A stretch of 11,745 nt of DNA from Candidatus Omnitrophota bacterium (GTDB taxonomy: Bacteria; Omnitrophota; Gorgyraeia; Zapsychrales; Fredricksoniimonadaceae). How positions within the stretch are numbered: the first letter of the stretch is position 1; the number at the start of each line of letters is the position of its first letter. The notes beneath the pieces are model-generated. The model searched no databases and was not told the DNA's origin. It saw only the letters and a program-made list of their open reading frames with translations. This document shows, one piece after another, positions 1-11,745 of the stretch. The position numbers and the translations under genes are program-made. The stretch covers positions 1 through 11,745 of the forward strand of contig JACQQW010000064.1 in the NCBI GenBank assembly GCA_016206745.1, written 5' to 3'.

Positions 1-349
1 GGGCCCCCTGGAAGGCGGACCAGTCTTTTTCCCGGCGAGGCAGCACATGGTCCACGCCCGCGGATTTAAATGCTTCCATGGCCTGCGCGGTGGTCAACAG
101 GCCCGTTTGAACAATGATGGCCGTGGAGGGGGACGCGGCCTTGATTTGCCCGGCCAGGGCCGCGCTGTCCGCGTCGGGCAAAGTGGCTGAAAGCACAATC
201 ACATCCGGCTTATGCTCCAAAACAGCTTCCATGGCCTTAAGGCCACAGGAAACCACTACGATATTCTTCAATGTCAATGATTCCAAAAACCCTGCCATTT
301 TAGGGGCGTACACCGGGTGCGCGTCAATGATCATGATCTTGGCATTCAT
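1..349 (-). CDS. Receiver-like domain protein with degenerate phosphorylation site (partial, runs off the left edge)
   Basis: The first 116 codons are present; the gene continues beyond base 1. The start ATG (349-347) overlaps the TGA of the upstream response regulator (348-346) and has a GGAAG ribosome binding site six bases away. The protein starts MNAKIMIIDAHPVY and follows the CheY-like alternation: strand 1 (residues 4-8), PDVIVLSATLPDAD (48-61), AIIVQTG (77-83) and AGVDHVLPRR (97-106). The expected phospho-acceptor aspartate after strand 3 is serine (S54). Only one acidic residue (D9) remains of the usual pair, and the strand 5 lysine is replaced by Pro/Arg. It is therefore probably a pseudo-receiver, or a receiver controlled without phosphorylation. 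What follows the receiver (output domain or stand-alone protein) cannot be seen. Its position as third gene in a kinase/regulator chain suggests the same signalling pathway. Confidence 0.8.
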   Translation of the reverse strand, partial: MNAKIMIIDAHPVYAPKMAGFLESLTLKNIVVVSCGLKAMEAVLEHKPDVIVLSATLPDADSAALAGQIKAASPSTAIIVQTGLLTTAQAMEAFKSAGVDHVLPRREKDWSAFQGA

Positions 350-1071
350 GGTTTCTTCCGCCGCTGTTGATACTGCCCGCGATAAACGCCGGGGGTCTTC
401 TTGACCTGACGTTTAAAAGCCCGCATAAACGATTCCGGGTTCTCATAACCGAGCTGGTAGGCGATTTCACTGACATCCAGCGACGACCGGCGCAGCAAAT
501 CCATCGCCTTTTCCATCCTGACTTTTAGTTTATACCCCCTGAAACCATACGGGTCATATCTGGTAAAAAGGCGGCCCAGATATTGAGGTGAAAGGCACAT
601 TTCTTTGGCGATGTATTCCAAAGAGGCATTGGTATAATTGCGCTGGATAAACTGGCGTATGCGCTCCATCTGTGTTTGGGGATCCCGCGCGCAATGGTCA
701 TAACGGGATTTTTCTTTAAGTATGAGCTTCACCCGCTCTCTAAGCTGATGGACATCAAATGGTTTTTCAATATAATCGTCGGCATGCAAACGCAAAGCTT
801 CCACTACAATGTCCTGGCTGCCATGGGCGGTGATGATCATGACCGCCATGTCTTCTCTTGCGCCTTTCAGCCGCTGTAATAATTCGATCCCGTTGAGGCC
901 TTTCATGCACACATCCACCATCGCCAAATTGACTTCATTGGGACCGGACAGGAAGTCCAGCGCCTTTTGAGGGTCCAAAAATGAAATCAATTGATGTTCG
1001 AATAAAACCGCTTTCAGGCTCTGATGGATCCGCGGATCATCATCCACCACCACAATTTTCTCAGAAATCAT
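346..1071 (-). CDS. Response regulator, receiver domain plus AraC-family DNA-binding domain
   Basis: A 241-residue two-component transcription regulator. The N-terminal receiver (about 1-120) has the acidic cluster VVVDDDP (8-13), the phospho-acceptor D53 in AMVDVCMKG, T81 in IITAHG and the conserved lysine K103 in IEKPF, so it should be phosphorylatable. The C-terminal part (about 133-235) is an AraC-type double helix-turn-helix: the first helix pair lies around LEYIAKEMCLSPQYLGRLF and the second around VSEIAYQLGYENPESFMRAFK, followed by the typical TPGVYR. The start ATG overlaps the stop of the histidine kinase by four bases (ATGA) and is preceded by AAGGTG, so it is probably translationally coupled to its kinase. 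AraC-type output usually means activation of nearby promoters; autoregulation of this operon is a reasonable inference, not shown. Confidence 0.95.
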   Translation of the reverse strand: MISEKIVVVDDDPRIHQSLKAVLFEHQLISFLDPQKALDFLSGPNEVNLAMVDVCMKGLNGIELLQRLKGAREDMAVMIITAHGSQDIVVEALRLHADDYIEKPFDVHQLRERVKLILKEKSRYDHCARDPQTQMERIRQFIQRNYTNASLEYIAKEMCLSPQYLGRLFTRYDPYGFRGYKLKVRMEKAMDLLRRSSLDVSEIAYQLGYENPESFMRAFKRQVKKTPGVYRGQYQQRRKKP

Positions 1072-2840
1072 CCCACACCTTTTCCCAGATGTTCACGCGT
1101 ATAAACCGGCAAAAACACGCGAAAAGCCGCCCCTTTTCCAATTTCACTGCTGACCTCTATACGGCCGCCGTGTTTATGGACAATATCCCGGCAAATGGCC
1201 AGCCCCAAACCCAGACCGGTATCTCTGGTGGTGAAAAACGGGTCAAAAATCCGCGCCAAATGTTCCGCAGCAATGCCTTCGCCTGAATTGGCCACTTCAA
1301 AACCCGCCGTCGTATTTCTCACCCAAATCTCCCCGCCGATGGGCGCGGCCTCCACCGCATTGGCAATTAAATTGACGATCACCTGTTTGATTTTACCTTC
1401 ATCCGCCCAGACCAGAGGGGCCGCATCAGATGTCTGGACATGAAAATGCACCCCCCGTTTTTCTACTTTCAATTTGGCTAAAAAAACCACCTCCTCGATG
1501 AGCGCATTGAGGTTGACGGGGGCAAAATCCAAAGGCATTTGCTCGCGCGCGAAATCCATCATATTGCGCAGCATCTCATTCCAACCGTCCAATTCTTTGG
1601 CGATCGTTTTCGTCGCATCCTGCACAAAAGCTTTGTCTTTATGGCGCTGGGGCATCAATTGCACGAAAGCCTTGACCAGCACCAGCGAATTCTTTAATTC
1701 ATGCGCGATGCTGGCCGCGGATTTACCGACGATAGACAATCGCTCCATCTGACGGGCTTTCTTGAGCTGCACGGTCATATGGTTAAATGCGAACTTCAGG
1801 CGGCCGATCTCGTCCCGGCGGTGGATCGGCAAAGAAACGGACAGGTCCCCCTTGGCCAGGCGGCGCGTGGCCTCGATCATCTCATGCATCGGACGGCTCA
1901 TCCACTGGGCAATGATAAACCCGATCAAGGCCGCCGCCAACACACTGAAGACCACCAAAATCCAGGAATGGTAATGCATAAGCCTCACAAAGGCAAAGGC
2001 CTCCCGGTACGGCTGGGCAAGGATCAAGCCCCATCCTAAAGAAGTGATCGGAGAATAGGCAACGATCCATTTCTGCTTGCGGGCATCGAGCACGGTGCGG
2101 GCAGCGTTTCTGCCCAGTTCCAAATCGCCCAGCACCTCCGGATAGGTAAACGTATTATTTTTCAGCACTTCCTTCTTGTCCGGGTGGGCCAGGATGCGCC
2201 CGTATTGGTCAACCAAAATAGCGCGGCTTTGCGGCCCGAATTGAATTTGGTCCACCACATCCCAAACACCCCGCAAACTATACTCGGCCGTCAATAGACC
2301 CTCCACCTTGCCGTAACGGCGGACAGGGACAGACATATCCATGACCGGCACATGGTCCGAAGCGGTGCGCACCTTCGAAACCCAACGGTTTTCACCGCGC
2401 CAGAGGCCAGGCACATCCGCATTCAACTCTTTGACCTGGGACGCAGCCAAATCGGAACATGCCACAGGGCGCCCTTTTGAGTTCACAGAACAAATACGCC
2501 TCAAAGAAGGATATTTTAAAGACAATGCCACCACCGCGGTTTCCTGACGCCATGCGTCCGCGTGCAAAGTGCCTAAAATGGAGGCCGTGGCCTCCAGGGC
2601 CCGGAAAGCCCCTTCATATTCATTCAATACTTCACCGGTGGCATGCAAGGCAATTTGCTTTAGATCACGGCTGACGGTCTCTTCGATGGTTTTTTGGCTG
2701 GTGTGAATGAGCAATGTCCCTAAAATAACCAAAGGGACAATCATCAGCCCCAGGAGGATAAAAAAAATCTGCTGCCATAAGCGCCGGGGGACCCACTTAT
2801 AAATGTGCATAGGGGGCATGAGTTTATTTAAATTGCTCAT
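1068..2840 (-). CDS. Membrane sensor histidine kinase (dCache-like sensor, HAMP, HisKA, HATPase)
   Basis: A 590-residue sensor kinase. A short cytoplasmic N-terminus is followed by membrane segment 1 (about 24-46), a periplasmic region (about 47-285) with the look of a dCache sensor (YGKVEGLLTAEYS, ILVDQYGRILAHPD, WIVAYSPITSLGWGLILAQP), membrane segment 2 (about 291-312) and a HAMP linker (about 313-365). The phospho-acceptor is H380 in ASIAHELKNSL. The ATPase domain shows the N box around N490 (VNLIANAVEAA), a G1 box as NSGEGI (518-523, Asn in place of the usual Asp, a known variant), an F box (FDPFFTT) and the G2 box GLGLGLAI (542-549). The gene begins 11 bases after the radical SAM gene and overlaps the response regulator by four bases. 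No clear ribosome binding site precedes the ATG at 2840; M8 and M11 are alternative starts. The periplasmic ligand is unknown. Confidence 0.95.
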   Translation of the reverse strand: MSNLNKLMPPMHIYKWVPRRLWQQIFFILLGLMIVPLVILGTLLIHTSQKTIEETVSRDLKQIALHATGEVLNEYEGAFRALEATASILGTLHADAWRQETAVVALSLKYPSLRRICSVNSKGRPVACSDLAASQVKELNADVPGLWRGENRWVSKVRTASDHVPVMDMSVPVRRYGKVEGLLTAEYSLRGVWDVVDQIQFGPQSRAILVDQYGRILAHPDKKEVLKNNTFTYPEVLGDLELGRNAARTVLDARKQKWIVAYSPITSLGWGLILAQPYREAFAFVRLMHYHSWILVVFSVLAAALIGFIIAQWMSRPMHEMIEATRRLAKGDLSVSLPIHRRDEIGRLKFAFNHMTVQLKKARQMERLSIVGKSAASIAHELKNSLVLVKAFVQLMPQRHKDKAFVQDATKTIAKELDGWNEMLRNMMDFAREQMPLDFAPVNLNALIEEVVFLAKLKVEKRGVHFHVQTSDAAPLVWADEGKIKQVIVNLIANAVEAAPIGGEIWVRNTTAGFEVANSGEGIAAEHLARIFDPFFTTRDTGLGLGLAICRDIVHKHGGRIEVSSEIGKGAAFRVFLPVYTREHLGKGVG

Positions 2841-2851
2841 AGCACAGTCTA

Positions 2852-4237
2852 CTATAAATCCCCTCCTGACTCAAAAAATAACCGCGCCCCCTTTTTATTG
2901 AAACGCGACTGGTATTCCTGTTTGATGATTTCAGGCGCCATTTTATTTAAATAGGGTTTGTGGCAGGTCGGGGTCCGAAAATTCCGGTTCTTTAAAAATG
3001 AAGATAAACGGCAACCCCCTGAACACATGGGCATATAGGTGCAGTCCTGGGGGCATTGATTATAAACGTCCAAATGTATGAACGTCTGGTGCTGCCGGTT
3101 ATAGTCATTGTCCCTGACATGGCCGGTGGACAGTTCCGGATGGCCGAGCATGGAGTTGCATTTAAAAATACGGCCTTGCTGGTCAACGGTGACCCCGGCC
3201 TCATTGCGCGTCACCGGGCACACGGATGTGGACATGCCGCTTTTCATTTCCAGGCCGTAATGGACCATCAATTCCCGGATGCGGCGGTTGGCCTGCACCA
3301 GCGCGTCATCTTCATAGTTGCACATGCAATGGGAGTTTTGGATTTTCTCGGTTTCCCCTTTGGCCCCCAGGGTCGCGTGTATGGGCGAAAAAATAAAACG
3401 GCCCAGTTTATGCAAAATGCCTTTATCTTTGCAGTAGGCAAACAATTTCTCGATGTGGCGCACGTCCCCCTTGTCAAAGCTGACCGATATTCCAACAGGC
3501 AGCTTGACGCATGAAGCGGTGATATTATTCATAATCACTTCAAACGTACTGCCGCCGCCGCGCAAAGGACGGTGCTTGTCATGGTCTTCCCCGACCCCAT
3601 CGACGGAAATGCGCACCTGGTCCAGGCCCAGTTCCAAATAACGGTCCACCAGTTGGGGCGTCATCAAATAACCGTTGGTTTGCATCATGAATTTAAATTC
3701 CATGCTCCGGTTTTTACACCACTCCTGCATGGAAGCGGCGATATATTCCAACACGGGTTTATTGAGCAAAGGTTCTCCGCCGTAAAAATTCAAATACAGG
3801 CGGCGGTATCCCAGTTTAAGGACCTTGGCCTTGAGCCAGTCCATGGTGTGGTCGGCCGTTTCCATCGACATTTTTTCATTGACGCGCGAACTTTCCTCAA
3901 AACAATACACGCATTTGAAATTACAGGCATAGGTGGTCAAAATGGTCGCAAAACAGCAATCGGTATTGACGCTGTATTTGATCTGGCCCATGTGCGCTTT
4001 CAGGCGGGTAAAATCTTCCGTTTCGTCATGCGCCAGGATGCCCATCTTATGCAGCCCGATGACATCGTCCGCGTATTGGAAACGCAAACGGAAATATTCC
4101 GCGCTGTCAAAATGGTCGATGAGGTCCTTGAGTTCATGGTTAATCTTGACCATGGCCTGGGAACGGGTGTTATACAGCAAATATTCACCGGGATCAGGAT
4201 AATCAGGAATGATGATGGTATGAAAAGAAAATCGCAT
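2852..4237 (-). CDS. Radical SAM/SPASM domain peptide maturase
   Basis: A 461-residue radical S-adenosylmethionine enzyme. The SAM-binding [4Fe-4S] motif CxxxCxxC is at C105, C109 and C112 in YACNFKCVYCFEES. The GGEP motif is at 153-156 and a SVDG strand at 211-214. The C-terminus is a SPASM domain that should carry auxiliary Fe-S clusters: C340, GRIFKC ending at C360, then C395, C399, C405, C409 and a final C425. The spacing matches the SPASM consensus except that the first pair after the gap is CX3C rather than CX2C. The N-terminal ~90 residues (EYLLYNTRSQAMVKI) resemble the leader region of other peptide-modifying SPASM enzymes. I chose ATG 4237 over the upstream GTG at 4258 because AAGGGGTG lies at ribosome-binding distance. 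The adjacent 33-residue Cys-containing gene is the obvious substrate candidate. The chemistry (thioether, C-C bond, epimerisation or other) cannot be read from sequence. Confidence 0.93.
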   Translation of the reverse strand: MRFSFHTIIIPDYPDPGEYLLYNTRSQAMVKINHELKDLIDHFDSAEYFRLRFQYADDVIGLHKMGILAHDETEDFTRLKAHMGQIKYSVNTDCCFATILTTYACNFKCVYCFEESSRVNEKMSMETADHTMDWLKAKVLKLGYRRLYLNFYGGEPLLNKPVLEYIAASMQEWCKNRSMEFKFMMQTNGYLMTPQLVDRYLELGLDQVRISVDGVGEDHDKHRPLRGGGSTFEVIMNNITASCVKLPVGISVSFDKGDVRHIEKLFAYCKDKGILHKLGRFIFSPIHATLGAKGETEKIQNSHCMCNYEDDALVQANRRIRELMVHYGLEMKSGMSTSVCPVTRNEAGVTVDQQGRIFKCNSMLGHPELSTGHVRDNDYNRQHQTFIHLDVYNQCPQDCTYMPMCSGGCRLSSFLKNRNFRTPTCHKPYLNKMAPEIIKQEYQSRFNKKGARLFFESGGDL

Positions 4238-4263
4238 AAACACCCCTTCAAAGATCACCCGTT

Positions 4264-4297
4264 AAAAAATACGCCGGGGTGAATACCACCCCCGGCG
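4264..4297 (-). terminator. Rho-independent terminator or attenuator between precursor peptide and maturase
   Basis: On the transcribed strand an 8-bp GC-only stem (CGCCGGGG at 4297-4290 with CCCCGGCG at 4279-4272) closes a 10-base loop and is followed by TATTTTTT. It lies 24 bases after the stop of the small peptide gene and 27 bases before the maturase ATG. Partial termination here would give many precursor transcripts per maturase transcript, a common arrangement in peptide-modification operons. A 7-bp inverted repeat that would compete with this stem is described separately. Confidence 0.75.
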
Positions 4298-4306
4298 CGG
4301 GTATTC
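4281..4306 (-). promoter_or_regulatory. Possible competing (antiterminator-like) hairpin
   Basis: GAATACC (4306-4300) and GGTATTC (4287-4281) form a perfect 7-bp inverted repeat with a 12-base spacer on the transcribed strand. Its spacer contains the 5' arm of the terminator stem, and its 3' arm lies in the terminator loop, so the two stems cannot both form as ordinary secondary structure. The terminator stem is longer and richer in G and C, so it should dominate unless something stabilises this one. Whether it acts in regulation is inference. Confidence 0.4.
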
Positions 4307-4320
4307 CTGTTAGCACTGTT

Positions 4321-4422
4321 TTATTGCGTGGGAAATTCCAGACTTTCCGACCCTGGCGGCCAGCAGCAATTTAATGCGGCCATTTGATTGATGTCATCTG
4401 TGCCGTAATTAAGAATTTCCAT
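4321..4422 (-). CDS. Putative RiPP precursor peptide, 33 residues, with NCCWPPG motif
   Basis: A very short gene: ATG at 4422-4420, stop TAA at 4323-4321. It starts MEILNYGTDD, carries NCCWPPG at residues 18-24 and ends EFPTQ. There is no signal peptide or membrane segment. Translation is strongly supported by an ideal Shine-Dalgarno sequence (AAAGGAGGTGA) four bases upstream. It begins four bases after the stop of the solute-binding protein and is followed by a terminator-like hairpin and then a radical SAM/SPASM enzyme. That setting is typical of a modified-peptide precursor with an N-terminal leader (about 1-17) and a C-terminal core. C19, C20 and W21 are the likeliest modification sites. 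I do not recognise it as a member of a named precursor family. The alternative is a short leader peptide that only helps regulate the maturase gene. Confidence 0.78.
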   Translation of the reverse strand: MEILNYGTDDINQMAALNCCWPPGSESLEFPTQ

Positions 4423-4426
4423 AGTT

Positions 4427-4437
4427 TCACCTCCTTT
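4427..4437 (-). promoter_or_regulatory. Strong Shine-Dalgarno sequence of the precursor peptide gene
   Basis: AAAGGAGGTGA on the transcribed strand is a near-perfect complement of the 16S rRNA 3' end, four bases before the peptide ATG. It is built from the last codons of the binding-protein gene (AGG AGG TGA, encoding Arg-Arg-stop), so ribosomes ending there stand right at the peptide start. No other gene in the window has so strong a site, which fits high expression of a precursor. Confidence 0.85.
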
Positions 4438-6034
4438 CCTGAAGAATATACCAATGTTTAATCAAATAATCCGGCATATGTGGAGAAAAAAATATATCCA
4501 TATTTTGAATACGGGTACTGACCGCATGAAACGTGGTCAGAAAAAATAAAAAACAGGCGGGCTGGTCATCATAAATCAAAGCATGCATTTTGCGGTATAG
4601 ATCCGCGCGCTGCTGTCCATCTTTCAGCATACGCCCTTGCTCAAACAATTGATCGATAACGGCATCTTCATAAGACCACAAACGCCCAAATTCACTGGAG
4701 GTTGAATACCAACTACGGGCCATATCCGAAGGATCATTGCCGTTCCCCAGGAACATCCGCAGCCACATTTGGGGTTTGACTCGCGCTATATAATCCTGAG
4801 TGAGCTGGCTTTCATCATCGTAAAACACAATTTTCAAACCTATGCCAATCTCGGATAATTGCTGGCGCAAAATAAGCGCCATTTGGCGGCAATCCGGACG
4901 GTTGTGGTTAACCAGCATGGTTAAAATTAATGGCCGCCTTCCTTTTCTAAGAATCCCATCATCTCCTAAGTTCCACCCGCGGCCTGCCAATAATAATTTG
5001 GCCCGTACAGGATTATAGGAAGCAGGTTCGACCTCGCTGTTAAATCCCGGAGATTGCGGGAAAAAAGGGCCATTGCTTTCTATTCCGTTGATCCCAACCG
5101 ACTGCATCAAGGCCTGACGGTCTATGGCATAGCCCAGGGCATGGCGCAGATCGCGGTCATATAAAATGGGATCGTGCGTATTATAAACAACCGCGAAATA
5201 CATGCCGCTTGGGATCTGATAGGTCTTAAATGCCGGGTCTTTGCTTAAAACTTCATAATCTTGACGGTTAAGGAATTTAGCCAAATCCAATTCCCCCCGC
5301 ATCAACGCCGCCCATAATGCGGCATTGTCCGCGTAAACCTTAATGACAATCTTGTCTAAAAAAGGCCGCCCTTCAAAATAATTGGAGTTGGCCGCTAATT
5401 CTATTTCCTGATTTGAACGGTCCCATCGTTTAAAAACAAACGGTCCTGTACCGACAGGATGATAATTAAAAGATGAATCTGTCAAATGCGTTCCTGAAAA
5501 ACCATGCGCGGGAATGATGTACCGGATCATTTTCCTCAATAAAAACGGATACCTTTGCTTTAAAACCACCCGGAATACATGCCGGTCGACCGCTTCAAAC
5601 CGGTCGACCAGAGTAAAATCGGATTGGTAAATCGAAAATCCCGTCCCCTGCTTCATTTGATCATAAGTAAATTTTACGTCCTGGGCCGTGCATTCATGGC
5701 CGTCATGAAAATAAACCTCTTCCCTTAAATAAAAAGTATAGATCAACCCGTCTTCCGAAATGTCCCACGATTTCGCTAAATTCGGCTCAACCAAACCATT
5801 GGAATTAATGCGCACCAACCCGTCGAATAATAAAGGAATGATGGCTGCGGAAACGCTATGGGAAGTCAACACCGGATTAATGATCGTCGGAGGGTTGATG
5901 GTCCCCCACACCATGGTCCCGCCGTAACGGGAATGCTTTGCCGGGGGAATATAGGCGGGCTGCTGAACATCCGAAGATAGTGAGGTTAACAGTATAGTCA
6001 TTATGAATAGCGGGACACTTTTGAATATATTCAT
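4427..6034 (-). CDS. ABC-type extracellular solute-binding protein, family 5 (peptide/nickel/metallophore type)
   Basis: A 535-residue protein of the DppA/OppA/NikA family (SBP_bac_5). A hydrophobic N-terminal segment (about 5-20, VPLFIMTILLTSLSS) looks like a signal peptide. There is no cysteine for a lipoprotein anchor, so the protein should be free in the periplasm. Family hallmarks include PLLFDGLVRINSNGLVEPNLAKSWDISEDGLIYTFYLREEVYFHDG (in pieces over 67-112), the AQDVKFTYDQ helix, HPVGTGPFVFKRW (192-204), DRDLRHALGYAIDR (293-306) and a C-terminal RADLYRKMHALIYDDQPACF (476-495). No permease or ATPase lies in the window, so it is an orphan binding protein. It stands between a TonB-dependent receptor and the putative precursor peptide, like MbnE in methanobactin operons. 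Binding of the mature peptide, or of its metal complex, is inferred. The gene reads somewhat richer in A and T than its neighbours. Confidence 0.92.
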   Translation of the reverse strand: MNIFKSVPLFIMTILLTSLSSDVQQPAYIPPAKHSRYGGTMVWGTINPPTIINPVLTSHSVSAAIIPLLFDGLVRINSNGLVEPNLAKSWDISEDGLIYTFYLREEVYFHDGHECTAQDVKFTYDQMKQGTGFSIYQSDFTLVDRFEAVDRHVFRVVLKQRYPFLLRKMIRYIIPAHGFSGTHLTDSSFNYHPVGTGPFVFKRWDRSNQEIELAANSNYFEGRPFLDKIVIKVYADNAALWAALMRGELDLAKFLNRQDYEVLSKDPAFKTYQIPSGMYFAVVYNTHDPILYDRDLRHALGYAIDRQALMQSVGINGIESNGPFFPQSPGFNSEVEPASYNPVRAKLLLAGRGWNLGDDGILRKGRRPLILTMLVNHNRPDCRQMALILRQQLSEIGIGLKIVFYDDESQLTQDYIARVKPQMWLRMFLGNGNDPSDMARSWYSTSSEFGRLWSYEDAVIDQLFEQGRMLKDGQQRADLYRKMHALIYDDQPACFLFFLTTFHAVSTRIQNMDIFFSPHMPDYLIKHWYILQERR

Positions 6035-6061: not shown

Positions 6062-6101
6062 ATGACTTTATAACACTTAAGACTGACATTTTATGACTTT
6101 A
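6062..6101. repeat. Short direct repeat ATGACTTTA, two copies 31 bases apart
   Basis: On the plus strand ATGACTTTA occurs at 6062-6070 and 6093-6101, the second copy overlapping the stop codon of the TonB receptor. A related CATACTTTA (6032-6040) covers the start codon of the binding-protein gene. Spacings of about 30 bases equal roughly three helix turns, so the copies would face the same side of the DNA. They could be operator half-sites, but they are short and A/T-rich. Confidence 0.3.
6067..6075 (-). promoter_or_regulatory. Candidate extended -10 promoter before the solute-binding protein
   Basis: TGTTATAAA on the transcribed strand matches an extended -10 (TGn plus TATAAA). I see no convincing -35. 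Transcription would start near 6060, leaving a leader of about 25 bases before the ATG at 6034. The 64-base gap between receptor and binding-protein genes is the longest between genes before the precursor gap, so an internal promoter is plausible here. Confidence 0.3.
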
Positions 6102-6971
6102 AAAGTTGACCGATACCCCGCCCTCAACATAGCGGCCGGGCAGAGGGTAAGTGGGCGAAGACAGGTGCTGGCTGTTGGTGATATTATAAAGGTTGAAAAA
6201 AATTTCCATGTCCACGTCCCTTAAAACATCGGGAATGTTCTGGTTGAGGCGAATGTCGAAAATGGGTCTGTGGTCCTTGGCCTGATCAGGAGATGAACTC
6301 CACCGGTTATAATACCCTTGCAGATAAAATGTCAGGCCAAACGGCCAGGCATAGGATGAACCCCATTTAAAACTTTCCCGGGCCGTCCCCGCGTCCCGGA
6401 CAATCTTTTTTGTCTGCACATCCCGCACATCATTGAACGTTGCTGCGGCAAACGAACGCCACCGCTCACCGAAAACATAATCCATACGGACTTCTCCTCC
6501 CTGCCGGACAAATTTCTTAAAATTACGGCTTTGCCGGATAAGCCCGACAGTTGGAACCGTAGAAATCGCATCCTTGACGTCCGAACGGTACAGATTAAGC
6601 GCTCCTTTAAGCCCATGGACAATCAACGGGCCTTCAACACCAATTTCATAAAGCATGGCCCTTTCCGCTTTTAAGTCCGGATTAGGCGCCACTCCCTGGT
6701 TGGGATCATCATTGTAAAGCCACAATAAAGGCGGGGCGCTGAAAACCCTGGAGGCCCTGGCCCGTACCCGCCCCGTTTCCCATCCCGGCACATGGTACAC
6801 CAGGCCAAAACCGGGACTCAGTTGGGACCCAAAATGGCTGTTGCGGTCATAACGCAGCGCCGGAATAAAATCCCAATCCCCCGCCGCCCAAGCCAAATTG
6901 GCATAGGGCGACTGCGCATTGACCTTGTGCTTTGGTAAGATAATTGCTTGATTTAAGCGCATGCCAGTCAA
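6099..6971 (-). CDS. TonB-dependent receptor, C-terminal part after a frameshift
   Basis: This open frame holds the last half of the outer-membrane beta-barrel of the receptor begun at 8001. It has alternating amphipathic strands (for example WDFIPALRYDRNS, FGLVYHVPG, GEVRMDYVFG, FYLQGYYNRW), an ELKAERAMLYEIGVE-like barrel segment (DLKAERAMLYEIGVE) typical of receptors of this family, and a C-terminus ending VEGGVSVNF, with the terminal aromatic residue expected for outer-membrane insertion. The first in-frame start is only a TTG with no ribosome binding site inside the preceding open frame, so it is unlikely to be translated by itself. Homology-like reading should join at about 6926-6940 (KHKVNAQSPYANLAW). 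Joined to the upstream part the protein is about 634 residues, a normal length for a BtuB-type receptor. Confidence 0.85.
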   Translation of the reverse strand: MTGMRLNQAIILPKHKVNAQSPYANLAWAAGDWDFIPALRYDRNSHFGSQLSPGFGLVYHVPGWETGRVRARASRVFSAPPLLWLYNDDPNQGVAPNPDLKAERAMLYEIGVEGPLIVHGLKGALNLYRSDVKDAISTVPTVGLIRQSRNFKKFVRQGGEVRMDYVFGERWRSFAAATFNDVRDVQTKKIVRDAGTARESFKWGSSYAWPFGLTFYLQGYYNRWSSSPDQAKDHRPIFDIRLNQNIPDVLRDVDMEIFFNLYNITNSQHLSSPTYPLPGRYVEGGVSVNF

Positions 6972-8001
6972 AATCCATGCCCATGGTCAATGTCCGGTCG
7001 CTGTGCCATTCATACACATCATTGAAACTCAGGCCCTGGTAAAAATTATGGCTGACGGTGGAAGAGACCCTGGCACCGGTCGATGAATTATACGTGTCCG
7101 TTGTAATGTCCTGGTCATTGTATTTGTAGGCGGTGCTCACACGATGCTCCATTGTATCGGTCTTCAATTCCACGGCCCCGTAACGGGAAATATAAGGCTG
7201 GTCGAAAATACGGCCGGCATTGGTGGGACCATAACGCAACTGCGCGCCGCTGTAACCAAAACTCGCGCTTATGTCCGTCGATGGATTAAAATCGTATTTG
7301 ACCTTGGTAAAATTCTTGATCTCCTGCGTGCGGGAGTCCGCTAAATGCCCGTCCGCATGCAAAAAACTGCCGAAGGCGGAATAGCCCGCGGCCCCTGCCT
7401 TACCATCAAGCTCAAGGCTGTTTTTGGCCGCGGCAAATTGGGCAAAGCTGGTCGTCAAACGGCCATGCGGCTTGGGGCCGGTGCCGGGCGGTTTGGTGAT
7501 AACATTGATCACTCCACCGAGGCTCGACCCCCATGCGCTGGAATCCCCTCCTTTGATCACCTCCACCTGCGCAACATTCTCGAGGGGAATCCGGCTTAAG
7601 TTCGCCTGTCCGGACAATTGCGTATTAAAAGGGATGCCGTCCACCATGACCAGGACCTGGCGCGAATTAGAACCGCGGATGGAGACTGCGGTGGCCTGGC
7701 CAAACGGCCCGTTATTTTGAATGTCCACCCCGGGCATGTAATTGAGAGCCTCGGCCAGATTCCGGGCGGGCAGCCCATGCAAATCTTCCGCGGTAAAAAC
7801 TTCCACCTGGCCGGCAATGCGGCTGGAAGGCACGGGGGAACGGCCGGGGGAAACAACAATCGGATCCAATAAAATCCTGTCGTAGTCCGCCTCCTTGGAC
7901 CACGCTCTATCGACCGGGCAAACAGTGCAGTAAAAAATCATCACGCCATACAAAAGAAAAACCAGGCCTTTCATCAAAAAAATATGACCATAGAGAGTCA
8001 C
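6847..8001 (-). CDS. TonB-dependent outer-membrane receptor (BtuB-like), N-terminal part, frameshifted
   Basis: It encodes a hydrophobic signal segment (about 10-30), a TonB-box-like DPIVVS (46-51), a complete plug domain (about 55-170: VEVFTAEDLHGLPARNLAEAL, SIRGSNSRQVLVMVDGIPF, VAQVEVIKGGDSSAWGSSLGGVINVITK) and the first barrel strands. The frame then breaks: sensible sequence runs to about NYLTK and is followed by an unrelated low-quality tail (GLGGGGLGFYSG) ending at 6847, while barrel sequence continues in the next frame. The GTG start at 8001 overlaps the gpsA stop by four bases (GTGA) and has GAAGG just upstream; an ATG at 7974 is an alternative that still keeps the signal segment. The family imports scarce complexes such as cobalamin or metallophores using TonB energy. 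Substrate is unknown; position before the binding protein and putative precursor suggests uptake of the modified peptide. Confidence 0.9.
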   Translation of the reverse strand: MTLYGHIFLMKGLVFLLYGVMIFYCTVCPVDRAWSKEADYDRILLDPIVVSPGRSPVPSSRIAGQVEVFTAEDLHGLPARNLAEALNYMPGVDIQNNGPFGQATAVSIRGSNSRQVLVMVDGIPFNTQLSGQANLSRIPLENVAQVEVIKGGDSSAWGSSLGGVINVITKPPGTGPKPHGRLTTSFAQFAAAKNSLELDGKAGAAGYSAFGSFLHADGHLADSRTQEIKNFTKVKYDFNPSTDISASFGYSGAQLRYGPTNAGRIFDQPYISRYGAVELKTDTMEHRVSTAYKYNDQDITTDTYNSSTGARVSSTVSHNFYQGLSFNDVYEWHSDRTLTMGMDFDWHALKSSNYLTKAQGQCAVALCQFGLGGGGLGFYSGAAL

Positions 8002-11435: not shown

Positions 11436-11509
11436 TGGAGCGGGCGATGAGAATCGAACTCACGTTACCAGCTTGGAAGGCTGGAGTTCTACCACTGAAC
11501 TACGCCCGC
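11436..11509 (-). tRNA. tRNA-Gly (TCC anticodon)
   Basis: A complete cloverleaf on the minus strand: acceptor GCGGGCG (5' end at 11509) pairs with CGCCCGC, anticodon stem CCAGC/GCTGG holds loop CTTCCAA with anticodon TCC, and the T arm contains GTTCGATTC. Discriminator T is followed by an encoded CCA (11438-11436), unlike the two other tRNAs here. It is the last tRNA of the cluster, 56 bases before the glycosyltransferase start. Confidence 0.97.
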
Positions 11510-11518
11510 GTTATAAAA

Positions 11519-11601
11519 TGGGCAGTGAAGGATTCGAACCTCCGAAGCGCAAGCGCAACAGATTTACAGTCTGTTCCCGTTGACCACTTGGGTAACTGCC
11601 C
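11519..11601 (-). tRNA. tRNA-Tyr (GTA anticodon)
   Basis: A class II tRNA of 83 bases: acceptor GGGCAGT (5' end at 11601) pairs with ACTGCCC, discriminator A at 11519, anticodon stem ACAGA/TCTGT with loop CTGTAAA (anticodon GTA), a long variable arm with GCGCTTGCGC and a T arm with GGTTCGAATCC. CCA is not encoded. It lies nine bases before tRNA-Gly, so the two are surely cotranscribed. Confidence 0.98.
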
Positions 11602-11606
11602 TAAAT

Positions 11607-11673
11607 GGGACATGTGCCTGATTCGGGGACATGTACGGTTTTTGTACGTGTCCCCGAATTAGGTGCGCGTCCC
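11607..11673. repeat. Long imperfect inverted repeat (30-bp arms, 7-base loop) between tRNA-Thr and tRNA-Tyr
   Basis: Left arm 11607-11636 (starts GGGACATGTG, contains ATTCGGGGACATGTAC) and right arm 11644-11673 (starts GTACGTGTCCCCGAAT, ends GCGCGTCCC) flank the loop GGTTTTT. On the plus strand the hairpin has 24 Watson-Crick pairs, five G-T wobbles and one A-C mismatch; on the minus strand the wobbles become A-C mismatches, so the plus-strand single strand folds much better. The left arm also contains a tandem GGGACATGT motif. It resembles the REP-like palindromes mobilised by Y1 (REP-associated tyrosine) transposases, though no transposase is present in the window. Confidence 0.85.
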
Positions 11674-11689
11674 CTTATTTCCAATAATA

Positions 11690-11745
11690 AGCTGGCGAGA
11701 GGCCTCGAACCCCCGACCTGCTGATTACAAATCAGCTGCTCTACC
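11690..11745 (-). tRNA. tRNA-Thr (TGT anticodon), partial at the right edge
   Basis: The window holds the 3' 56 bases or so: part of the D arm (GGTAGAGC), anticodon stem GCTGA/TCAGC with loop TTTGTAA (anticodon TGT), the T arm with GTTCGAGG and the 3' acceptor strand CGCCAGC with discriminator T. The 5' acceptor strand lies beyond base 11745. CCA is not encoded. The order Thr(TGT)-Tyr-Gly(TCC) equals the E. coli thrU-tyrU-glyT cluster. Confidence 0.95.

Follow-up and report, generated by a model that had tools for sequence, protein, structure and literature searches.

A conserved Cys-Cys peptide and its probable radical SAM maturase in a putative transport and sensing operon of Omnitrophota

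Introduction

Geopeptides are an uncharacterised peptide family for which NCBIfam holds a precursor model (TIGR04229) and a maturase model (TIGR04280); a full-text literature search for geopeptide or CCWPPG returned no paper, most subscription journals lying outside its coverage. The system described here is located on a stretch of 11,745 nucleotides (the window; positions 1 to 11,745 of contig JACQQW010000064.1, assembly GCA_016206745.1, Candidatus Omnitrophota bacterium) and consists of a 33-residue Cys-Cys peptide gene directly before the gene for a radical S-adenosylmethionine (SAM) enzyme. By sequence comparison, the pair is a sister branch of the geopeptide family that scores below the model cut-offs. 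The pair is embedded in an operon of transport and sensing genes, which was missed in the initial annotation of the window and is the best clue to function. On balance, this gene content favors an operon for a ribosomally synthesized and post-translationally modified peptide (RiPP) with a logic of export, recapture, and sensing, of which metallophore-like scavenging would be the most likely purpose.

Methanobactin systems include a TonB receptor (MbnT), a binding protein related to OppA/AppA (MbnE), and an exporter (MbnM), as described in the available sections of PMC7558416 and PMC3621798, and according to those of PMC3621798 they also carry regulators. Among radical SAM enzymes, PapB forms Cys-to-Asp/Glu thioethers (PMC9413430, available sections), and the SPASM enzyme SbtM makes a thiooxazole from Cys, removing four hydrogens (PMC11002830, available sections). 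Thiooxazole peptides from other enzymes bind copper (PMC12538549 and PMC13097082, in the sections available); those described as copper-binding are products of MNIO enzymes, which use oxygen (PMC13097082, same sections). The system is not mentioned in the available part of a Cariaco Basin paper (PMC9902471).

Precursor peptide gene

The peptide gene and the enzyme gene have the following features.

4321..4422, minus strand: 33-residue precursor peptide gene (sequence, relatives in 25 of 25 loci, purifying selection)
4430..4437, minus strand: ribosome-binding site AAAGGAGG of the peptide gene (sequence)
4369..4422, minus strand: leader-like part, residues 1-18, MEIIxxG[ST]xDVxxxxxLx (19-peptide alignment, 17-peptide codon table)
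4351..4368, minus strand: core motif CCWPPG, with Cys-Cys at 4363-4368
2852..4237, minus strand: radical SAM/SPASM-type maturase, in an open reading frame (ORF) readable from GTG at 4258 (2852-4258)
3902..3925, minus strand: CX3CX2C radical SAM cluster motif (alignment, sequence)
2963..3220, minus strand: seven auxiliary-cluster cysteines, SPASM-type (alignment, sequence)
4046..4219, minus strand: N-terminal domain of three strands and three helices, like a RiPP recognition element (RRE) (predicted secondary structure; labelled by analogy)

A tiny gene with an ideal ribosome-binding site directly before a radical SAM enzyme had been described in the initial annotation, and its placement was exact. 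The ORF at 4321-4422 (minus strand) translates to MEILNYGTDDINQMAALNCCWPPGSESLEFPTQ and is preceded, seven bases 5′ of its ATG, by the strong ribosome-binding site AAAGGAGG. This site falls within the last codons of a family-5 solute-binding protein gene, an overlap suggesting that the binding protein and peptide genes are co-transcribed.

The enzyme family occurs in 11 of 81 genomes of the order, 19 of 384 of the class, and 20 of 384 of the phylum (overlapping sets); the window's own genome is 69% complete. Comparison of the window with up to 20 kb from each of 24 other genomes of the phylum supported the earlier proposal that the peptide and enzyme form a precursor/maturase pair: a short ORF encoding Cys-Cys lies directly 5′ of the enzyme gene in 25 of 25 loci. 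A script found 24 of these peptides; in the remaining locus (L127), the ORF is split by an assembly gap (a run of N), despite which CCWPAG is legible. The Cys-Cys pair itself is invariant (25/25). The residue at +2 after Cys-Cys is Trp in 14 loci, Phe in six, Tyr in two, and Met, Gly, or Val in one each, Pro at +3 is present in 23 of 25 loci (absent from L131 and L132), and the Asn preceding Cys-Cys is also variable. Of the CCWPPG core that had been expected to be conserved, the cysteines and, with two exceptions, the first Pro therefore stand, but the Trp does not. L131 and L132 are deep Omnitrophota relatives, and their cores (CCGFD and CCVSD) are without Pro.

In an alignment of 19 peptides, Cys19, Cys20, and Pro22 are invariant. 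Codons were compared among 17 ungapped peptides, one of which (L157) is from genome G053; L122, L125, L127, L128, and L130-L134 had been excluded beforehand because of spacing, truncation, or divergence. The proportion of nonsynonymous changes (pN) was lower than that of synonymous changes (pS) in 136 of 136 pairs, which are non-independent (median pN, 0.34; median pS, 0.80), and the codons of both Cys residues and of Pro vary synonymously only. Among 368 genomes of the phylum, DNA encoding CCWPPG was found in 25 places: nine copies have the leader-like N terminus, eight of them at enzyme loci and one in G053, 35 bases from the contig end, and the other 16 occurrences fall in unrelated frames. 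The window peptide matches no Pfam or NCBIfam family (NCBIfam at E 0.01). These comparisons make it almost certain that the 33-residue gene encodes a real, conserved precursor peptide.

Radical SAM enzyme

Homologues of the enzyme begin at Met8 of ORF 2852-4258, which suggests that its true start is the ATG at 4237. The Pfam radical SAM domain was detected in the window enzyme. The initial annotation had described a SPASM enzyme with a full cluster-binding set, and the cluster set stands: an alignment of 24 sequences (the window enzyme and 23 homologues drawn from the best 120 of 956 proteins) shows no variation at any of the ten cluster cysteines. The Pfam SPASM model (PF13186), however, has no match to the window enzyme, and the one match to it in the window's genome falls on a different contig. 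The auxiliary cysteines follow the pattern C-x14-G-x4-C, then CX3C, x5, CX3C, and a final C; their second block is CX3C, where the SPASM consensus has CX2C. The SPASM label is thus based on the cysteine set, a full-length match to TIGR04280, and a CteB-like predicted fold.

Geopeptide maturase TIGR04280 is the nearest NCBIfam model and is matched over its full length at 254.8 bits (cut-off, 400), followed by CefB, TIGR04463, Clo7bot, FlmE/OhkG, and PapB; the window enzyme is below cut-off for both the PapB model (124.6 versus 340 bits) and the SCIFF model (91 versus 425 bits). The predicted structure of the enzyme (predicted local distance difference test score, 88.8) has CteB as its best Foldseek match (E 3.4e-18), followed by TigE and anSME, and CteB was likewise the best PDB match in a sequence-profile search. 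In this whole-enzyme prediction, the order of the N-terminal elements (three strands, three helices) is that of winged-helix-like RRE domains.

In a tree of 43 sequences (a single FastTree run with uncertain rooting, in which seven loci served as outgroups only), the enzymes associated with CC[WFYM]PxG peptides, including that of the window, form one clade (support, 0.97). This clade is nested in a wider one (0.97), where all precursors found contain Cys-Cys; five of the enzymes in this wider clade are above the TIGR04280 cut-off. No convincing peptide was found near the enzyme in L013 (Omnitrophota) or L020 (archaeal), both of which are placed outside the Cys-Cys clade. Judged from sequence, the enzyme probably modifies the window peptide.

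Geopeptide-type and outlying relatives

More distant loci were taken from the best 80 of 507 related loci, among which L006-L020 and L025 were examined around the gene; L006-L010 are treated as L115, L121, L114, L120, and L123 and counted once. Seven loci of Nitrospirota and Desulfuromonadaceae (L014-L019 and L025) are of geopeptide type, and all seven encode Cys-Cys peptides. The enzymes of L014, L015, L017, L019, and L025 score 528-615 bits on TIGR04280, above its cut-off, and L016 and L018 were assigned by tree position, without a TIGR04280 score. Four Omnitrophota relatives (L111, L129, L131, and L133) score 228-334 bits, below the cut-off.

The window pair resembles geopeptides in its maturase, which is similar over the full length, in the short precursor with invariant Cys-Cys directly before it, and in the TonB and two-component genes nearby; the Cys-Cys trait of geopeptides is derived from the loci compared here and not from a published definition. 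It differs in that the maturase is below the 400-bit cut-off and the peptide has no TIGR04229 match, and geopeptide-type loci use a PF04392 binding protein, whereas the window uses SBP_bac_5. The pair had been proposed as new; the window does fall below the cut-offs of known models, but the neighboring geopeptide models were already in NCBIfam.

Several geopeptide-type peptides are Lys-rich, with Cys-Cys present and WPPG absent. In L018 and L025, the N-terminal part of the precursor is long, histone-like, and rich in Lys and Ala. The TIGR04229 precursor model is matched weakly by the L019 peptide (12.6 bits; cut-off, 30) and, at E 10, not at all by the CCMPPG and CCYPTG relatives. In nine genomes, five of which have above-cut-off maturases, no TIGR04229 match exceeded the cut-off, and matches below it also occurred in 7 of 14 controls. 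The lack of matches over the cut-off even in genomes with above-cut-off maturases suggests that the model is narrow.

A TonB receptor is near the enzyme in six of the seven geopeptide-type loci (in L014, its gene lies downstream in the opposite orientation), and the contig of L016 begins right before the enzyme. A PF04392 binding protein (cluster c5; Pfam on L015 and L017) is near the enzyme in all seven and is encoded on the opposite strand in L014 and L019. The PF04392 family is unrelated to SBP_bac_5; that the same type of peptide and enzyme is accompanied by either of these families argues that the product is captured outside the cytoplasm. L015 also has a sigma-54-type regulator. In L012 (Spirochaetales), the same type of enzyme is accompanied by a GSCCSW peptide, a MATE exporter, a family-5 binding protein, and a dCache kinase.

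Transport and sensing operon

The remaining genes of the window operon are listed here.

6099..8001, minus strand: TonB-dependent receptor, two overlapping ORFs (6847-8001 and 6099-6971) (Pfam, neighbor comparison)
4427..6034, minus strand: family-5 solute-binding protein, SBP_bac_5 (Pfam; signal-peptide-like N terminus judged by eye)
1068..2840, minus strand: histidine kinase with dCache sensor domain (Pfam, neighbor comparison)
346..1071, minus strand: response regulator with AraC-type DNA-binding domain (Pfam, neighbor comparison)
2..349, minus strand: receiver-domain protein, cut by the contig end (Pfam)

The gene order in the window is TonB receptor, binding protein, peptide, enzyme, dCache histidine kinase, AraC-type response regulator, and receiver protein, with all genes on the minus strand. 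Much of this arrangement recurs across the 25 loci. The binding protein is directly upstream in 25 of 25 (as a contig-end fragment in L117, L122, L127, and L128), the TonB receptor is upstream in 20 of the 21 whose contig extends that far, and the histidine kinase is downstream in all 22 with enough contig. An ABC (ATP-binding cassette) exporter, recognised with Pfam on one locus, directly follows the enzyme in 18 of 24 loci with enough contig. Gene clusters shared by at least three Omnitrophota loci are limited to c0-c4. In L131, two half-size ABC genes follow the enzyme. A regulator gene is located directly 5′ of the TonB receptor in L123-L126, L129, and L132, that of L129 encoding a sigma-54 activator with a receiver domain.

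Of the 81 genomes of the order, 12 carry the binding-protein subfamily (E ≤ 1e-100), 11 carry the enzyme, and 10 carry both (hypergeometric probability 4e-10, ancestry ignored). Three genomes are mismatched, all at contig ends: G017 (a binding-protein fragment only), G053 (binding protein and peptide, after which the contig stops), and G046 (a match that ends with the contig). This co-occurrence with the enzyme, with mismatches falling at contig ends, makes the binding protein look dedicated to the system. Among the matches listed, it is closest in both sequence and fold to AppA (nonapeptide) and NikZ (nickel), and its ligand may be a peptide or a metal complex, both of which fit; MbnE (5ICQ) was not among the PDB matches listed.

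Proposed function of the product

In the proposed scheme of export, recapture, and sensing, the enzyme, which has an RRE-like N terminus, would likely bind the MEIIxxGT leader and modify the Cys-Cys pair, for which thioether crosslinks or cysteine heterocycles would be the simplest outcomes. The product would leave the cell through the adjacent ABC exporter in most relatives and by another route in the window. Its return through the TonB receptor and its retention by the periplasmic family-5 binding protein are suggested by the co-occurring neighbors, and the dCache kinase and regulator would sense the product, the binding protein, or the need for the product and control the operon. Export and recapture of the product are probable on this gene content. 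A role as a metallophore, rather than as a signal or an antibiotic, is drawn by analogy and is put forward tentatively, at somewhat less than even odds. An orphan maturase family thereby becomes a testable system, with a probable substrate (the Cys-Cys peptide), a probable receptor and binding protein for retrieval, and a possible reader kinase, and these little-studied bacteria probably produce a small peptide, release it, and take it back up, perhaps for metal gathering or signaling.

Several observations weigh against this scheme. The ABC exporter after the enzyme is absent in the window, L111, L113, L116, L120, and L132, and ten proteins further downstream in L111, L116, and L132, scanned with Pfam, comprised Mla-type lipid transport and unrelated genes, with no peptide exporter. 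Neither a leader peptidase nor a metal-specific gene was recognised, and a peptidase domain is absent from the one exporter scanned. L131 has its TonB receptor on the opposite strand, downstream, and no such receptor was found in the 5.5 kb before the enzyme in L012. The window TonB gene changes frame near 6924, where its similarity to the L111 receptor also switches frames; this may be an assembly error or a natural change. L011 (an Ignavibacteriales record) has a CCFPAG peptide and an enzyme nested within the Omnitrophota branch, but this enzyme is truncated (matching residues 8-340), and the next gene encodes an S9 peptidase in place of an exporter or kinase; the locus may represent a transfer, a decayed copy, or a misassembly. 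Finally, a TonB receptor with a two-component system is also compatible with a signal.

As to chemistry, PapB-type thioethers may fit, by analogy with the nearest enzyme families. CteB is the closest solved fold and the PapB-family model matches the window enzyme, although the enzyme is below the PapB and SCIFF cut-offs. SCIFF peptides have six cysteines, as the family name says, and PapB substrates have repeated CX3D, whereas the peptides here have two adjacent Cys residues and, in the 19-peptide alignment, no invariant Asp/Glu acceptor. Conservation of Cys-Cys alone in all loci argues against a Trp-centered crosslink as the shared reaction. SbtM is likened to the window enzyme by chemistry only, as a SPASM radical SAM enzyme acting on cysteine, which is the activity proposed here; its precursor is predicted to contain selenocysteine, unlike the ordinary Cys codons of the window peptide.

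The cluster resembles those of methanobactins in its short Cys-containing precursor, TonB receptor, OppA/AppA-like binding protein, exporter, and regulators. It differs in that a radical SAM enzyme replaces MbnB/MbnC, the exporter of most relatives is of the ABC type (MATE in L012), and regulation is by a two-component system. Neither MbnB (DUF692/MNIO) nor MbnC had a match among the window proteins scanned (best 25 of longer NCBIfam lists). By analogy, the system could be an anaerobic, radical-SAM-made counterpart of methanobactin, in which Cys-Cys would be converted to a compact metal-binding unit and the 33-residue product, or a fragment of it, exported, loaded with a soft metal such as Cu(I) or Ni, retrieved by a dedicated TonB receptor and binding protein, and sensed; this reading is speculative and rather unlikely. 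The metal-binding units may then be thiooxazoles, as formed by SbtM, or fused thioether rings. If the product binds metal, methanobactin-like scavenging would be open to anaerobic bacteria by way of a radical SAM enzyme, and a function would also be assigned to geopeptides. The methanobactin counterpart, if real, would be a RiPP metallophore class extending across Omnitrophota, Spirochaetales, and the geopeptides of Nitrospirota and Desulfuromonadaceae.

The strongest rival is a secreted signal or pheromone, in which the exported modified peptide would come back to the periplasm and be shown by the binding protein to the dCache kinase, which would drive the operon by way of its response regulator. 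The constant presence of the downstream kinase (22/22), the dCache domain in all four Omnitrophota/Spirochaetales kinases scanned, and the lack of a recognised importer permease among the window proteins are in keeping with a signal, as is AapF, a fold neighbor of the binding protein that was solved with a signaling molecule. However, dCache domains sense many small molecules, and this breadth of ligands weakens the argument from the kinase, as does the geopeptide-type locus L015, whose kinase has no Cache domain at E 1e-5. A TonB receptor would also be a costly means of receiving a signal, and methanobactin systems have regulators as well (PMC3621798, available sections). A signal is considered unlikely, though credible.

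An antimicrobial peptide, for which the receptor and binding protein would have a Trojan-horse or self-protection role, is improbable. Many radical SAM RiPPs are antibiotics, and the exporter in 18 of 24 loci and the patchy distribution of the enzyme (20 of 384 genomes of the phylum) would suit such a role. Bacteriocin arms races, however, typically do not keep a core strongly conserved, as this one is across families, and the uptake genes co-occur with the producer's own enzyme.

Slightly less probable still is a peptide-derived redox cofactor or quinone-like carrier, shared and re-imported in the manner of pyrroloquinoline quinone (PQQ) or mycofactocin. SPASM enzymes produce such cofactors from peptides, the precursor here is short, and the PqqU model weakly matches the window TonB gene (63 bits; cut-off, 1200). 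On the other side, Cys-Cys is the only residue pair kept throughout, and no user enzyme stands out, since clusters c0-c4 are the only ones shared by at least three Omnitrophota loci.

A final alternative, in which the small ORF would yield no precursor and the enzyme would use a different substrate, would accord with the missing Pfam and NCBIfam matches of the peptide but is very improbable given the strong ribosome-binding site, the presence of the ORF in 25 of 25 loci, pN below pS in all 136 pairs, and the purely synonymous changes in the invariant Cys, Cys, and Pro codons.

Hairpin between peptide and enzyme genes

The gap between the two genes (4238-4320) contains a further feature.

4264..4296, minus strand: hairpin (4273-4296) and T-rich run (folding of the gap)

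Folding of the window gap gave a minimum free energy of -33.8 and a z score of -3.1, and 24 of the 31 folded loci reached a z of -2 or below. The hairpin is weak or absent in L117, L125, L127, L130, and L133, and L025 and L012 are just short of the threshold. On a plain reading, the hairpin is possibly a leaky terminator or attenuator that would keep the level of the peptide above that of the enzyme.

The loop reads GCGGCCGA in a group of eight related Omnitrophota loci (L123-L130), with the form GCGGCCGG in L130, and an identical GCGGCCGA loop is present in L011. Stem letters differ among L123-L130, mostly in a compensating manner, with L129 and L130 breaking some pairs (in a simple register). 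A search pattern for this GCGGCCG[AG] loop, which does not cover the L127 and L130 types, was found once per genome in six of ten genomes, always in this gap, against two matches for the reversed control. A separate, stricter pattern was found in three of ten genomes, and the L127 and L130 types were found with it. The fixed loop hints at a factor bound at the hairpin.

At gathering scores, Rfam matched only tRNAs in the window, where three tRNA genes stand in a row at 11439-11745 (minus strand), at the contig end.

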